Of a stretch of 62,368 bases of DNA, positions 11,031 to 33,133 are shown one piece after another (the stretch's first letter is position 1; the number at the start of each line of letters is the position of its first letter). The stretch is from Roseiflexus sp. Its GTDB lineage: Bacteria; Chloroflexota; Chloroflexia; Chloroflexales; Roseiflexaceae. The position numbers and the translations under genes were made by a program. The notes beneath the pieces are model-generated. The model was not told the DNA's origin. It did not search any database and saw only the letters and a program-made list of their open reading frames with translations. Location: NCBI GenBank assembly GCA_017743475.1, contig JAGHYV010000017.1, positions 1 to 62,368 on the forward strand. The letters run 5' to 3'.

Positions 11031-11516
11031 ATGGCGACCAATCACCAACATTCAACTGATCGCCCGGTTGTCGTTGATTATCGATCCCATCGTCTGCACG
11101 CCAAAGCAATGCGGCGCAATCAGACGGTTGGCTGGGTGCACAGGCGTCTACGATCGTTTCCATTCGCTTTCGCAGGGATTGGACATCTGTTGCGCACTCA
11201 GGGGAATGCGCAGATCCACGTGGCAGTTGGGAGCGTGGCAATCATCCTCGGTTTTCTGTTCAATATCGAACGCGGCGAATGGCTAGCACTGGCGCTGACC
11301 ATTACACTGGTGCTGGCTGCTGAGGGGGTAAATACTGCCGTCGAAGCGGTTGTTGATCTGGTGACCCCTGGATTTCACCCGCTTGCCAAGATTGCCAAGG
11401 ATGTGGCTGCCGGTACAGTGTTGCTGACCGCGATTGGTGCTGTTGTGGTTGGGTTGATCGTCTTCTTGCCGCGTCTCTGGGCGCTCGCCGCACCATGGGT
11501 GATGGGCGCACTCTGA
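11031..11516 (+). CDS. dgkA: Diacylglycerol/undecaprenol kinase
   Basis: The 161-residue protein has an N-terminal cytoplasmic stretch of about 40 residues, then the family core: FAFAGIGHLLRTQGNAQIH, three membrane helices (about residues 60-78, 83-102, 133-155) and the catalytic signature AAEGVNTAVEAVVDLV. Gram-positive members phosphorylate undecaprenol, feeding the cell-wall lipid carrier pool. That fits uppP at 14957 and the wall-synthesis genes at 33998-39817. The ATG at 11031 lies behind a GTGAGGAG ribosome site inside ybeY; a GTG at 11025 is a possible alternative. The N-terminal extension is longer than in most homologues. Confidence 0.92.
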   Translation: MATNHQHSTDRPVVVDYRSHRLHAKAMRRNQTVGWVHRRLRSFPFAFAGIGHLLRTQGNAQIHVAVGSVAIILGFLFNIERGEWLALALTITLVLAAEGVNTAVEAVVDLVTPGFHPLAKIAKDVAAGTVLLTAIGAVVVGLIVFLPRLWALAAPWVMGAL

Positions 11517-11524
11517 GCGGAAGC

Positions 11525-12793
11525 ATGAAGATTCTGCTGCTGGCACCATATCCACCATACCCGCCACGCGGCGGCGGTGCAATGCGCACATACCAGATCA
11601 TCCGTGGTCTGGCGCAGCGTCATACCCTGACCTGCCTCACCTTCGTACCCGATGCTGCGGCAGAACAGGCGCTCGCGCCATTGCGCGACCTGTGCCGGTT
11701 GATCACAGTGCGCGGTCCTGCGCTACGATCGTTGATCCAGCGCGCGTGGACAACCCTGGCGTCGCCGCTCCCCGATATGGCGCTACGGAATACATCGCCT
11801 GCCTTCCGCACCGTCCTCCACGACCTGGTTGCGCACGAGCGCTTTGACATCATCCAGGCAGAGAGCATCGAGATGGCATCGTACCTCATCGATCTGGCGT
11901 ACAACGCCAGGTCATCATCATCGATGATCTTCCACCGACCATTGCTGGTGCTCGATCAGTTCAATGCCGAATATGTGCTGCAGAAGCGCATGGCAATTAC
12001 TGATCTGCGCACTGCATTTATGCTCGCCGACCCTGTGCGTCGCGGCGCAGGCGGTGTCTATTCTTTGACCCAGTGGATCAAACTGGCGCATTACGAACGT
12101 CGCATCCTGCAAATGTGCGATGCCATTATTGTCGTTTCAGAAGAGGATCGTAAAGCGCTGGAACGTCTTGGCGGAACGTGCCATGCAGTTGTGCCAAACG
12201 GCGTGGATACCATGTTCTTCAGCCGGGAGACGCTCACCGGCGATCATCGGGCACCGCTACCGTATGCAGCACCAGTGATGGTATTCAGTGGAACGCTCGA
12301 TTTTCGTCCCAATCTCGACGCGCTCGTCTGGTTTATCGACGCAGTCCTGCCCCGCATTCACGCCCGACGCCCCGACGCCCGGCTGCTCGTCGTTGGGCGG
12401 CGGCCCGTGCCGATCTTGCACCGTCTTGCCGAACGGGGACGCCTTGTTCTGACTGGCGAAGTCAGCGACGTGCGCCCATTCCTGGCTGGTGCTGCGGTCT
12501 ACATTGTGCCGATGCGGATTGGCGGTGGCATACGCCTGAAAGTGCTCGAAGCATTCGCACTCGAAGTACCGGTTGTCAGCACAACGCTGGGAGTTGAAGG
12601 GATTGCCGGGCTGCGCGACGGCATCCACTGCCTGCTGGCAGACACACCACAACAGTTCGCCAACGCTGTTGTGCGTCTACTGGATGATCCAGTGTTTGGG
12701 CGAATACTCGGCGCTGCCGGGCGGCGACTGGCGTGTGCAGAATACGACTGGAAAGCGATTATCCCGCGCATGGAAGCGGTCTATCAGCGTTGA
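11525..12793 (+). CDS. Family 4-type glycosyltransferase
   Basis: The 422-residue GT-B enzyme begins MKILLLAPYPPYPPRGGGAMR, where the glycine-rich loop of the acceptor domain is expected. The C-terminal domain has MVFSGTLDFRPN, LLVVGRRP and the donor-site motif GGGIRLKVLEAFALEVPVVS with the conserved glutamate. No signal peptide or membrane helix is present, so it acts on the cytoplasmic side using a nucleotide sugar; donor and acceptor cannot be deduced. The ATG at 11525 is preferred to an upstream start at 11495 that would overlap the kinase gene. It is 8 bases after dgkA and probably in the same operon. Confidence 0.9.
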   Translation: MKILLLAPYPPYPPRGGGAMRTYQIIRGLAQRHTLTCLTFVPDAAAEQALAPLRDLCRLITVRGPALRSLIQRAWTTLASPLPDMALRNTSPAFRTVLHDLVAHERFDIIQAESIEMASYLIDLAYNARSSSSMIFHRPLLVLDQFNAEYVLQKRMAITDLRTAFMLADPVRRGAGGVYSLTQWIKLAHYERRILQMCDAIIVVSEEDRKALERLGGTCHAVVPNGVDTMFFSRETLTGDHRAPLPYAAPVMVFSGTLDFRPNLDALVWFIDAVLPRIHARRPDARLLVVGRRPVPILHRLAERGRLVLTGEVSDVRPFLAGAAVYIVPMRIGGGIRLKVLEAFALEVPVVSTTLGVEGIAGLRDGIHCLLADTPQQFANAVVRLLDDPVFGRILGAAGRRLACAEYDWKAIIPRMEAVYQR

Positions 12794-12806
12794 AAGTTGA
12801 AGGAAC

Positions 12807-12820
12807 GTTGAACGTTCAAC
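12807..12820. terminator. Perfect palindrome GTTGAACGTTCAAC after the glycosyltransferase
   Basis: Two 7-base arms meet without a loop just after the glycosyltransferase stop. A longer version of the same sequence lies at the end of uvrA (33106-33133). It may be a terminator-like or repeat-derived structure. There is no T-run. Confidence 0.35.
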
Positions 12821-12870
12821 CTCAGCGGACGGCCCCAAGCGTATCGTAGCAAGAACACGCGCGGTTTATC

Positions 12871-13032
12871 ATGTACTTCACCCACATATGCCCGCGATGC
12901 GGGTTGGTCGTGAACTATGATTACAACGCAGCAAGCAACCTCCTGCATCGAGGACTCTATGTTCTACAGTCGAAGCGAAATACGCAACGACTGTGGGGCA
13001 TCACCCTCCAAAGCTCGATTCCTCAGAGATGA
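12871..13032 (+). pseudogene. C-terminal remnant of an IS200/IS605-type TnpB
   Basis: The 53-codon frame reads ICPRCGLVVNYDYNAASNLL and continues HRGL. This matches the end of TnpB/OrfB proteins: the second CxxC of the zinc ribbon followed by the D-x-N-A-A-x-N-I-L catalytic segment (the last RuvC aspartate). Nothing resembling the first CxxC or the body of TnpB is found upstream, so it is a remnant. The reading frame ends at TGA 13030-13032. It overlaps, in a different frame, the 5' end of the phospholipase D-like gene. No omega-RNA-like element can be recognised. Confidence 0.75.
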
Positions 13033-14140
13033 GCGCCGTTGCAGGCAACGTTTCAAGTTATGGCAGGTTCTTCTGGCGCTCCTGATTCTAAGTGTATGCT
13101 ACATACTGACGACACCCGGTTCTATCAAACCGCCACCCTCCGATAACCGCACTGCTGCAGATCAGGTACGTGTATTTTTCACTACACCGACGTTACGCTA
13201 CCCGGATGTTCCCAAACGACGCGCCCTGTCACCAGTGCTGCACGGGCTTATCGATGACATTGCTCATGCCCGCACGTCGGTTGAGGTAGCTGCCTTCGAC
13301 TTCGACCTGCCGCAGCTGGTCAATGCACTGATCCAGGCCAGGCGTCGCGGCGTTACCGTGCGCGCTGTCATCGACAGCGAGAACCTGGTCGACCCGGCAG
13401 TCGCAATGCTCACCGGGCGCCTGCAAGACTGGCAGGTTCCGATCACATTCGACCGACGGGCGCCATTTATGCACAATAAGTTCGTTGTAATCGACGATGC
13501 CATTGTGTGGACTGGTTCGTGGAATCTGACCGAAAACTGCACCTTCCGCAACAATAACAACGCGATACGCATTAAAAGTCGGCAGATCGCTGCTGCTTAC
13601 CGACGCGAATTCGATCAGATGCACGCAGGCACCTTTGGAACCGCCAAACGCAGCAGTGCGCCGCGTTCCGCAACCCGTATCAACGATGGATCTATCGAAA
13701 TCTACTTCTCACCACAAGACAAAGCGCTCCCCTTTATTCTCGAACAGATTGAACAGACACGCAGTACACTTGTCTTCATGGCATTTTCATTCACCTCGGC
13801 GCCGATCGCGGATGCATTAATTGATGCAGCGGCACGTGGTGTACACGTCGAGGGAGTCATCGAAAAACGCAACGCCGGAGGGACAGGGTCAGTATTCGCG
13901 CTCCTGCGTAATCGGGGAATTGATGTTCGAGAGGACGGCAACTGCTACATCATGCATCACAAGGTCATAATCATCGACAACCACATCGTCATTACTGGTT
14001 CATACAATTTTACCAGCAACGCAGAAAACACGAATGATGAAAACCTGGCAATCATCCGCAGTACAGCGATTGCCAGGCTTTTTCTCGAAGAATACGCACG
14101 TATTGGACGCCAGGCTACTGAGCCGACGCGCTGCAACTAG
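12917..14140 (+). CDS. Phospholipase D-like protein with two HKD domains, membrane-anchored
   Basis: The 407-residue protein has one hydrophobic helix (WQVLLALLILSVCYIL, about residues 49-64) followed by two PLD half-sites. The first is HNKFVVIDD with WTGSWNLT. The second is HHKVIIIDNH with ITGSYNFT and a downstream NDEN. Both have the H-x-K-x4-D pattern expected of an active enzyme. Members of the superfamily include phospholipases, cardiolipin synthases and nucleases such as Nuc; the short two-domain form with membrane anchor resembles Nuc-like or lipid-active proteins. The only start codons before the anchor, 12917 and 12959, both lie within the TnpB remnant read in another frame, so the gene's 5' end was probably supplied by the insertion sequence. 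Confidence 0.83.
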   Translation: MITTQQATSCIEDSMFYSRSEIRNDCGASPSKARFLRDERRCRQRFKLWQVLLALLILSVCYILTTPGSIKPPPSDNRTAADQVRVFFTTPTLRYPDVPKRRALSPVLHGLIDDIAHARTSVEVAAFDFDLPQLVNALIQARRRGVTVRAVIDSENLVDPAVAMLTGRLQDWQVPITFDRRAPFMHNKFVVIDDAIVWTGSWNLTENCTFRNNNNAIRIKSRQIAAAYRREFDQMHAGTFGTAKRSSAPRSATRINDGSIEIYFSPQDKALPFILEQIEQTRSTLVFMAFSFTSAPIADALIDAAARGVHVEGVIEKRNAGGTGSVFALLRNRGIDVREDGNCYIMHHKVIIIDNHIVITGSYNFTSNAENTNDENLAIIRSTAIARLFLEEYARIGRQATEPTRCN

Positions 14141-14523
14141 GTATTTGGTACATTAATCGGGTGCTTGCGCGGTCGCCCTGGTCTTCTGCGAGGCAGTCCT
14201 TCCGATGCTGAGTTTGTAGAAGATGCAACAGAAGCCGATGGTTCGAGTGTCTCTGGAATCAGTTCAACAATTTTGAATGGAATGGTCGATCCGCGCGTGC
14301 GGAAGAACAGAATGTCGAACCCTCGGCGCCTTGCAGCAGCACGTAGGCGATTACGGACGGTTGTACGTCTGTCGTCTGGTTCGAGCTCCACCTCACCATA
14401 ATCGCCGATAGTGTAGTCTTCTAGAAATTGATCGTACTCTGCCGCAATCAGCGCTCTCATGCCTTTACCTTTGTTTTCGAGGAGGAGTACCTCCTCCTTT
14501 GTGAGTTTGCGAACCTTGGGCAT
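14137..14523 (-). CDS. Small basic protein with AT-hook-like tail, function unknown
   Basis: The frame encodes 128 residues from the ATG at 14523, which follows an AAAGGA ribosome site; a longer frame upstream would remove that leader. The N-terminus is charged and helical (MPKVRKLTKEEVLLLENKGKG). The middle has the pattern RTTVRNRLRAAARRRGFDI followed by a beta-rich stretch. The C-terminus contains PGRPRKHP, matching the R-G-R-P core of AT-hook minor-groove binders in reduced form. I infer possible DNA binding but do not recognise the family. Its end overlaps the 3' end of the convergent PLD-like gene by 4 bases. Confidence 0.65.
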   Translation of the reverse strand: MPKVRKLTKEEVLLLENKGKGMRALIAAEYDQFLEDYTIGDYGEVELEPDDRRTTVRNRLRAAARRRGFDILFFRTRGSTIPFKIVELIPETLEPSASVASSTNSASEGLPRRRPGRPRKHPINVPNT

Positions 14524-14627
14524 AGCAGCATCCTTTCCGTAGTTCTGCCAGACACAGAATGAAAACCCCCCGACGGGTAAATGATAAGCAATCAAGAGAG
14601 GATTGAGATCCGATTACTCCACCAACC

Positions 14628-14656
14628 ATTGTATACCACTTTTTTATTCTACGCAA
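14628..14656 (-). promoter_or_regulatory. Promoter for the AT-hook-like gene
   Basis: On the minus strand TTGCGT (14656-14651) and TACAAT (14633-14628) are 17 bases apart, predicting a leader of about 95 bases before the ATG at 14523. The rest of the gap 14524-14956 shows no gene I can support. Confidence 0.5.
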
Positions 14657-14956
14657 GCGGATTTTCGGCTCTATCCACTCAAATAGCATATCTTTCACGT
14701 TGTTCCACGCGATCTCTTGCTTCCAGGGCGGCGCAAGATGAGTGTCAAATGCCATTACGCGGTCGAATTGCCCCATAACTGGTATGTGGAGATCAATACT
14801 GTGTCACCCAAATGCGCCGCCGCGACTCCGCCAATCTCGAACGTTCCGATGCGTCTGGTATAATGCACCGGTACGCACTGATACACCCGGTTGCACCAAT
14901 ACCGGTTGATTGCAGGATCAAACACTACTTCGAACCATTTAGAAAGTGAATGCTAC

Positions 14957-30182: not shown

Positions 30183-33110
30183 ATGTCTGCTGATTGGATC
30201 GTGGTGCGCGGGGCGCGCGTCCATAATCTGAAGAATATCACGGTCGCCATGCCGCGCAATGCGCTGGTGGTGATCACCGGTCTCTCTGGCTCCGGCAAAT
30301 CGTCGCTGGCGTTCGATACGATTTTTGCCGAAGGTCAGCGTCGCTATGTCGAATCGCTTTCCGCCTATGCCCGCCAGTTCCTTGGTCAGATCGACAAGCC
30401 GGACGTTGACGCCATCGAAGGATTGTCGCCTGCCATTGCCATCGATCAGAAAGGGCTGGCGCGCAATCCGCGCTCAACCGTCGGCACCATTACCGAAATC
30501 TACGATTATCTGCGACTGCTGTTTGCCCGGATTGGACGACCGCACTGCATCCACTGCGGTCGTCCGCTCACGCGCCAGTCGGCGCAACAGATGATCGATA
30601 CGATCCTCGGTCTGCCGGGCGGCAGCCGCGTGCTGCTGCTTGCGCCCCTCGTCCGCGATCAGAAGGGCGACCATCAGACCCTTTTCGATCAGGTGCGCAA
30701 GCAGGGGTTCGTCCGTGTGCGCGTCGATGGCGAGGTGCGCGATCTTGGCGACGACCTGCGCCTTGACCGTCATCGTCCGCATACGATCGAGGTCGTTGTG
30801 GACCGGCTGGTCATTCCATCAGCCGATCCCTCGCAGCAACAGACGCAGTTTCGCGTGCGCGTCGCCGATTCGGTCGAAACGGCGCTGCGGGTCGGCGGCG
30901 GCGTGGTGATCGTCCAGATCGTCGGCGGTGATGAACTTACTCTGTCGCAGCGTTACGCCTGCCCGGTGCACGGACCGGCTTCCATCGGGGCGCTCGAACC
31001 GCGTGATTTTTCTTTCAACAATCCATCGGGCGCCTGCCCTGCCTGTGATGGTCTGGGAAGCGTGCTGGAGTTCGACCCCGATCTGGTGATCCCCGACCGA
31101 TCCCGTTCACTTGCGGAAGGCGCTGTTGCGCCCTGGTCGAACGTCAGTCGCGCGCAGCGCCGCTACTTTGACGATCTGCTGACATCACTCGCCGGGCACT
31201 TCGGTTTTTCACTGCACACACCAGTGCGCGATCTGCGCCCGGAGGTGATCGCTACGCTGCTCTACGGTTCTAACGGTGATGTGATGCCGCTCCGTTACCA
31301 CATACGCGGCGAAGAGCGCATGGTTGAGGCGCCGTTCGAGGGGGTTATCCCCGGTCTGCGCCGTCGTCTGGCGGAATGCACCGATGAAACCGAACGCGCA
31401 CAGATTGAGCAGTTTATGACCCCGCGCACATGCCCGGCATGCAACGGCGCGCGACTGCGTCCCGAACTGCTCGCCGTCACCGTCGCCGGATACACGATTG
31501 CGCAGGTGGCGGCGCTCCCTGTCGCTGAAGCGTGGTCGTGGGCGAAAACACTGGCTGCCGACGTTGACGAGGTGGTCGCCCGCTGGCGTGAGACGCGCGA
31601 AAGCGACCTGCGCTCGTCCATCTATGCTCTTACGGTGCGCGAATGTCAGATCGCGGCGCCAATCCTGAATGACATCTGCGCCCGACTCCGGTTTCTAAAT
31701 GAAGTCGGGCTGGGGTATCTCACGCTTGACCGCACTGCGACGACCCTTGCTGGCGGCGAGGCGCAGCGCATCCGCCTGGCGACGCAGATCGGCGCCGGGC
31801 TGAGCGGTGCGCTCTATGTGCTGGACGAGCCGAGCATCGGGTTACACCCACGTGATACGGCGCGCCTGCTCAACACGTTGCGTCAACTGCGCGACCTGGG
31901 CAACAGCGTGCTGGTTGTTGAACACGACGAAGAGATCATTCGCGCAGCCGACTGGATCGTTGACATTGGTCCCGGTGCGGGAGAGCGCGGCGGCGAGGTG
32001 ATCGTCAGCGGTCCGCTCGATGCAGTGCTGGCAGAGCCGCGCTCACTCACCGGACAGTACCTCTCCGGCAAACGCACGATTGCCGTGCCACGCCGCCGAC
32101 GACCCGGCAACGGCGCATTCCTGACGATCAGGGGAGCGCGCGAGCACAACCTGAAGAACATCGACGTCTCTATCCCGCTGGGATGCCTGGTTGCCGTCAC
32201 CGGCGTCAGCGGGTCTGGCAAATCGACCCTGATCAACGACACCCTCTACCCGCGGCTGGCGCAGGCGCTCCATGGCGCGCGCGCACGCCCCGGTGCCCAC
32301 GACGCGATCTACGGCATCGAACAGATCGACAGAGTGATCGACATTGACCAGTCGCCCATCGGGCGCACGCCACGCTCCAACCCGGTCACCTACACCAAGG
32401 CGTTCGACCCGATCCGCAAATTGTTCGCGCAAACGCCCGAAGCGCGCGCGCGCGGCTATGATGCCAGTCGTTTCTCGTTCAACATTCCCGGAGGACGGTG
32501 CGAGCACTGTAACGGCGAAGGGTTGATGCAGATCGAAATGCAATTCCTTCCCGACCTGTACGTCACCTGCGACGTGTGTCACGGCGCGCGCTACAACCGT
32601 GAAACGCTCGACATTCGTTACCGGGGCAAGAATATCGCCGAAGTGCTCGACATGACGGTTGAAGAAGCGGCGGCATTTTTCGAGCGTGTCCCGTCCATCG
32701 CCGAGAAGTTGCAAACCCTGATCGACGTCGGGTTAGGCTATATTCGCCTGGGGCAGCCAGCCACGACCCTCTCCGGCGGCGAGGCGCAGCGCATCAAACT
32801 GGCGACCGAACTGAGTCGGCGCGCCACCGGGCGCACCCTCTACATCCTCGATGAACCGACGACCGGCTTGCACGTCGCTGATGTTGACCGGTTGCTGCGT
32901 GTCTTGCAGCGCCTGGTGGACGCCGGAAACACCGTTCTGGTGATCGAACACCATCTCGATGTGATCAAATGCGCCGATTGGGTGATCGACCTGGGACCGG
33001 AAGGGGGCGAGGAGGGCGGGCGTGTTGTCGCCGTCGGCACGCCCGAACAGGTCGCGCGAACGCCGGGATCGTACACCGGTCAGTGCCTGGCGCGGGTGGT
33101 TGAAGGTTGA
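30183..33110 (+). CDS. uvrA: Excinuclease ABC subunit A
   Basis: The 975-residue ABC-type DNA-damage sensor of nucleotide excision repair has two Walker A sites, [20 protein letters not shown] without its last residues being unusual (near residue 32) and [17 protein letters not shown] (near 677). The first ABC signature is [17 protein letters not shown] and the second [17 protein letters not shown]. Zinc modules are visible as [12 protein letters not shown] in the insertion domain and CEHCNGEG...CDVCHG. The length is standard. The ATG at 30183 begins the common N-terminus; an upstream start at 30120 would add 21 residues. The last codons lie inside a palindrome shared with the intergenic region. 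Confidence 0.97.
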
Positions 33111-33133
33111 ACGTTGAACGTTCAACGTTCAAC
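33106..33133. terminator. Long palindrome between uvrA and the HEPN gene
   Basis: Two 14-base arms (GTTGAACGTTGAAC and GTTCAACGTTCAAC) abut at 33119/33120. The palindrome overlaps the uvrA stop and lies 9 bases before the end of the convergent HEPN gene, a good place for a bidirectional terminator. It resembles the shorter palindrome at 12807-12820, so it may also be a repeat-derived sequence. Confidence 0.5.

Follow-up and report, generated by a model that had tools for sequence, protein, structure and literature searches.

The window, the whole 62,368-nucleotide stretch analysed here, is contig C143 of a 4.97 Mb genome in 206 contigs. It carries a gene for a phospholipase D (PLD)-like protein and, directly 5' of it at ~12880-13039, the fossil of an IS200/IS605-type tnpB element. 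The features of the locus are as follows.

11495-12793, + strand: upstream glycosyltransferase-like gene, in the same neighbour order in the sister species and in relative G003.
12840-12875, + strand: native upstream flank left of the fossil, the GCGTATCG...GCGGTT block, from alignment with relatives G001, G003, G004 and G005.
12880-12969, + strand: 5'-truncated tnpB coding remnant, the last ~30 codons (THICPRCGLVVNYDYNAASNLLHRGLYVLQ) with one of the two CxxC pairs, from homology to intact TnpBs.
12917-12919, + strand: ATG put forward as a start by the first-pass annotation; ATT in the sister species and hence not conserved.
12950-12954, + strand: Shine-Dalgarno-like GAGGA (GGGGA in the sister species), 4 nt before ATG 12959, from the sequence.
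12959-12961, + strand: most likely start ATG, inside the fossil and conserved in the sister species.
12959-13039, + strand: transposon-derived tail of 27 codons, predicted to be disordered, with a dN/dS of ~1.2-1.3.
12970-13039, + strand: right-end remnant with GCCGT at its end, corresponding to the part of intact elements that yields the guide-RNA scaffold, from alignment with such elements.
13040-13111, + strand: native N-terminal remainder, the basic stretch CRQRFKLW and the transmembrane helix, from orthologue comparison and structure prediction.
13112-14140, + strand: native linker followed by the PLD-like body, which has two HKD motifs (HNKFVVIDDAIVWTGSWN, HHKVIIIDNHIVITGSYN), from domain and fold matches and a dN/dS of 0.12.

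The protein matches PF13091 over two stretches (E 3e-50) and contains two HxKx4Dx6GSxN motifs and a PLD fold. Sequence matches include 1byr and 4ggj (Nuc endonuclease, mitochondrial cardiolipin hydrolase), and Foldseek returned PLD enzymes, including 7e0m and PLD3; the protein reaches the cut-off of none of the named NCBIfam equivalogs. For the 393-aa protein, AlphaFold2 predicts a confident two-domain PLD body, an intact membrane helix spanning residues 34-50, and disorder over residues 1-31, with a pLDDT below 50 in the tail. On the opposite strand, a convergent 152-aa ORF (14137-14595, - strand), which contains RRRPGRPRKHP, has a stop that shares 4 bases with the stop of the PLD gene. Several orthologous loci have a comparable reading frame beside their PLD gene, and the ORF has no NCBIfam match.

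The reading frame of ATG 12871 encodes a zinc-ribbon sequence with 60% identity over 35 aa to the 381-aa TnpB frame of a family relative (E 1e-9). Searched with a nucleotide profile built from intact tnpB elements, the window gave a match at 12884-13039 (E 9e-15) and nothing else above noise, and the sister species also gave a match (E 2e-11). The fossil zinc ribbon scores 21.3 bits with the Pfam TNB domain, against a threshold of 26.3, the second CxxC half alone remaining; an intact tnpB relative has all three expected Pfam domains. Both the RuvC nuclease core (OrfB_IS605) and the N-terminal domain are absent from the locus, where only ~12880-13039 is left and native flank lies directly to its left. 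The first-pass annotation had assigned all of 12871-13032 to the TnpB C-terminal zinc ribbon. The zinc ribbon is indeed present, but DNA alignment with intact elements shows that coding homology stops at ~12969, beyond which the window tracks what follows the tnpB stop codon in them. Where an intact element has that stop, the fossil carries 7 additional bases, and this keeps the TnpB frame open as far as 13032. At the right edge, GCCGT (13035-13039) corresponds to GCCGTCAC in intact elements, whose copies differ thereafter. For window and sister alike, none of 1000 dinucleotide shuffles and none of ~2000 random window segments reached the score of the right-end alignment; this pairwise test detects the fossil, and a profile built from post-stop right ends alone does not.

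Apart from the sister's copy, no close kin of the fossil was found elsewhere in the window's genome or in the genus. The sole match to the Pfam TnpB zinc-ribbon model found in the genome is L022 (G000:C152:5112-5315, - strand), a possibly degenerate locus with an in-frame TAG, an open frame of 188 codons and no detectable similarity to the fossil's right end.

Comparison of orthologous loci provides the states before and after the change. Orthologues of the PLD-like gene are present in 38 of 40 relatives. The same fossil, at the same position, occurs only in the nearest relative compared, the sister species (G002, a single 5,801,598-bp contig), making two carrier genomes in all, which the PLD tree places together with full support. 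The four other genus members (G001, G003, G004 and G005) have no fossil at the locus, and their proteins begin at a GTG ~13 codons before a shared LW.VLLALL helix. Upstream of this native GTG lie ribosome sites, AGGTGA in two of the fossil-free loci and AGGCGA and AGGACG in the others. The block comprising the native ribosome site and GTG is missing from the window and the sister species, and the fossil stands in its place. The GCGTATCG...GCGGTT block is common to the fossil-free orthologues, the window and the sister, and the exact left junction of the fossil falls at ~12871-12884. Further upstream, the glycosyltransferase-like gene has a dN/dS of 0.21 between window and sister. GTTGAAG/GTTGAAC repeat units occur at 12789-12820 and 33099-33133 of the window, with many dispersed copies across the genus; their copy number just upstream of the fossil varies between the sister species.

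The PLD frame is +1 relative to the TnpB frame. As the first-pass annotation had read from the sequence, the only ATG, GTG or TTG codons before the membrane helix are those at 12917 and 12959, in this next frame, and from the right edge of the fossil to the helix there is none. ATG 12959 is likely to be the start of the PLD-like gene. Its Shine-Dalgarno-like GAGGA derives from the tnpB codons HRGL, and its anti-Shine-Dalgarno duplex energy, within the best ~11% of all ATGs, is moderate. Since ATG 12917 is not conserved, the transposon-derived tail would comprise ~27 residues counted from 12959 rather than the ~38 first proposed. Most of this tail comes from the non-coding right end, and not, as had been suggested, from an out-of-frame TnpB coding remnant. 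The central proposal, that the start and N-terminus of the PLD protein derive from transposon DNA, is supported by the different native GTG of the fossil-free orthologues. Among the orthologues, none that is free of the fossil shows this N-terminus, the case that the first-pass annotation had named as refuting the proposal. A strong hairpin of at least 13 pairs is predicted at 12960-13000, beginning at the likely start codon, and according to this model it could hinder initiation at 12959.

From the helix onward (358 codons), dN/dS between the window and the sister species is 0.120, and pairs without the fossil give 0.117, 0.123 and 0.140 for the same region. Body constraint thus equals that of the fossil-free lineages, indicating that the gene stayed functional after the change, and it is very probably still translated. 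By contrast, the transposon-derived tail evolves without visible amino-acid constraint between the two carriers; the native tails of the fossil-free orthologues also look unconstrained, over 13 codons only. In simulations of 27 codons with 22 differences, the open frame and the ATG were both kept by chance in ~22% of runs, and the tail region alone therefore does not prove translation. Because these features could be retained by chance, the case for translation through the fossil is carried by the constraint on the body and by the absence of another start. We infer that the protein tolerates the tail as a spacer that itself does little, and no evidence of a new function for it was found. The word "recruited", used in the first-pass annotation, suits the start signal and not the tail sequence. 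The new expression signals that it had envisaged found no counterpart in a promoter and terminator scan, which returned matches no more often than chance and no promoter on the + strand near the gene.

These comparisons make it well supported that insertion-sequence DNA replaced the translation start of the PLD-like gene. In the course of events that we consider likely, the ancestor shared by the window's species and its sister had a native PLD-like gene with a membrane anchor, and a tnpB element of the IS200/IS605 type inserted at the 5' end of that gene. A later deletion would have cost the element its left end and the greater part of tnpB, and the gene its native ribosome site and GTG start, joining the upstream flank to the element's last ~160 bp. 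Because no stop interrupted the right end in the frame of the gene, translation would then have moved to ATG 12959, which lies among the final tnpB codons with GAGGA or GGGGA nearby. The protein would have gained a disordered cytoplasmic tail of ~27 residues, with membrane anchor and enzyme body both retained. The simplest history has a single ancestral insertion and then a deletion that removed the native start together with the left part of the element, the sequence of the two steps being inferred.

The same observations were weighed against other readings. The insertion might have been passive, with translation starting from a non-standard or in-helix codon (CTG or ATT) after 13040 and the upstream frame accidental. 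The unconstrained tail fits this idea, as does a frame that could stay open in both species by chance; however, the codons available for such a start are within the membrane helix, which they would cut short, an in-helix TTG of the sister is CTC in the window, and the basic residues before the helix are retained in both species. We regard this reading as unlikely. Loss of expression upon insertion, leaving a pseudogene in both species, would agree with the disappearance of the native start and ribosome site. It is largely refuted by the constraint on the body, which has stayed at the level of intact lineages since the species split, and no frameshift or stop interrupts the gene, whose two HKD motifs are intact; we hold it to be highly improbable.

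Other readings give the fossil a role of its own. The right end might have been kept as an RNA element controlling the PLD gene, either a solo leader resembling a guide-RNA scaffold or an sRNA. Hairpins are partly retained, with two double-sided compensating changes, and the window's 84-nt stretch folds with a z of -3.1. Yet base pairs are only weakly retained (P 0.025 one way, 0.17 the other), the corresponding fold of the sister is unremarkable (z -0.97), no other tnpB of the fossil's family that could use the right end was found in either genome, and an Rfam scan of 12600-14800 returned no match, which together make such an element very unlikely. The bolder combination, in which a tnpB right end that evolved as a guide-RNA scaffold now serves a host membrane enzyme both as translation-initiation region and as regulatory RNA hairpin, is very improbable. 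It is extremely unlikely that the TnpB-frame ORF (12871-13032) persists in its own right, coding for a small protein or a leader peptide that overlaps the start of the PLD gene: the sister also has ATG 12871 and a dN/dS of 0.65 in the TnpB frame gives a weak hint, but the zinc-ribbon part stands at 0.90 over few sites, a single CxxC pair is left, and the ends differ between the species, the sister's lying later.

We conclude that the gene has lost its native start codon and that its sole remaining conserved start falls within the transposon remnant, a change that is real and common to the sister species, but evolutionarily modest. The locus offers a clean example within a single genus, with before and after states, of an insertion sequence that would replace the translation start rather than the promoter. 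Intact elements of the fossil's tnpB family could readily create readout fusions. Of 10 intact right ends from this family, some of them near-identical copies, 7 keep the frame of the PLD fusion open to the element edge over the last 84 bases (open-frame count set: L029, L030, L077, L079, L080, L082 and L083). Since right ends in this family are often open in a frame running into the flank, such fusions may be commoner than annotated, and start-site annotation beside insertion-sequence remnants needs to be checked against relatives.

In the literature covered, which takes in only a minority of subscription journals, neither a report of the locus nor a close match to an IS200/IS605 right end giving a start codon was found. 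Insertion sequences can change the expression of neighbouring genes via outward promoters. Such cases resemble the present one in that an insertion-sequence end just upstream of a gene alters its 5' end; here, however, the fossil supplies a translation start and N-terminal codons, and no + strand promoter was matched. The enzyme shares its two HKD motifs with phosphodiesterases of the PLD superfamily (Nuc/NucT, mitochondrial cardiolipin hydrolase, PLD3 folds), and unlike these it belongs to a membrane-anchored Chloroflexota family with its own orthologues. In ISDra2, the tnpB 3' end and the right end give rise to a ~150-nt reRNA, to which the flank contributes the final ~16 nt (Karvelis et al. 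2021, PMC8612924). The fossil recalls this layout, and IS200/IS605 tnpB elements with reRNA/omega RNA in general (PMC8612924), in its tnpB 3' end running into the right end; it differs from intact elements in being 5'-truncated, in lacking the RuvC core, the first CxxC pair and a recognised left end, and in having lost the stop codon. As in prokaryotic mobile-element exaptation (reviewed in PMC8987985), immobilised element DNA is inherited vertically within a host gene, but here no transposon protein function is reused, and the DNA would provide only a start signal and a short tail.
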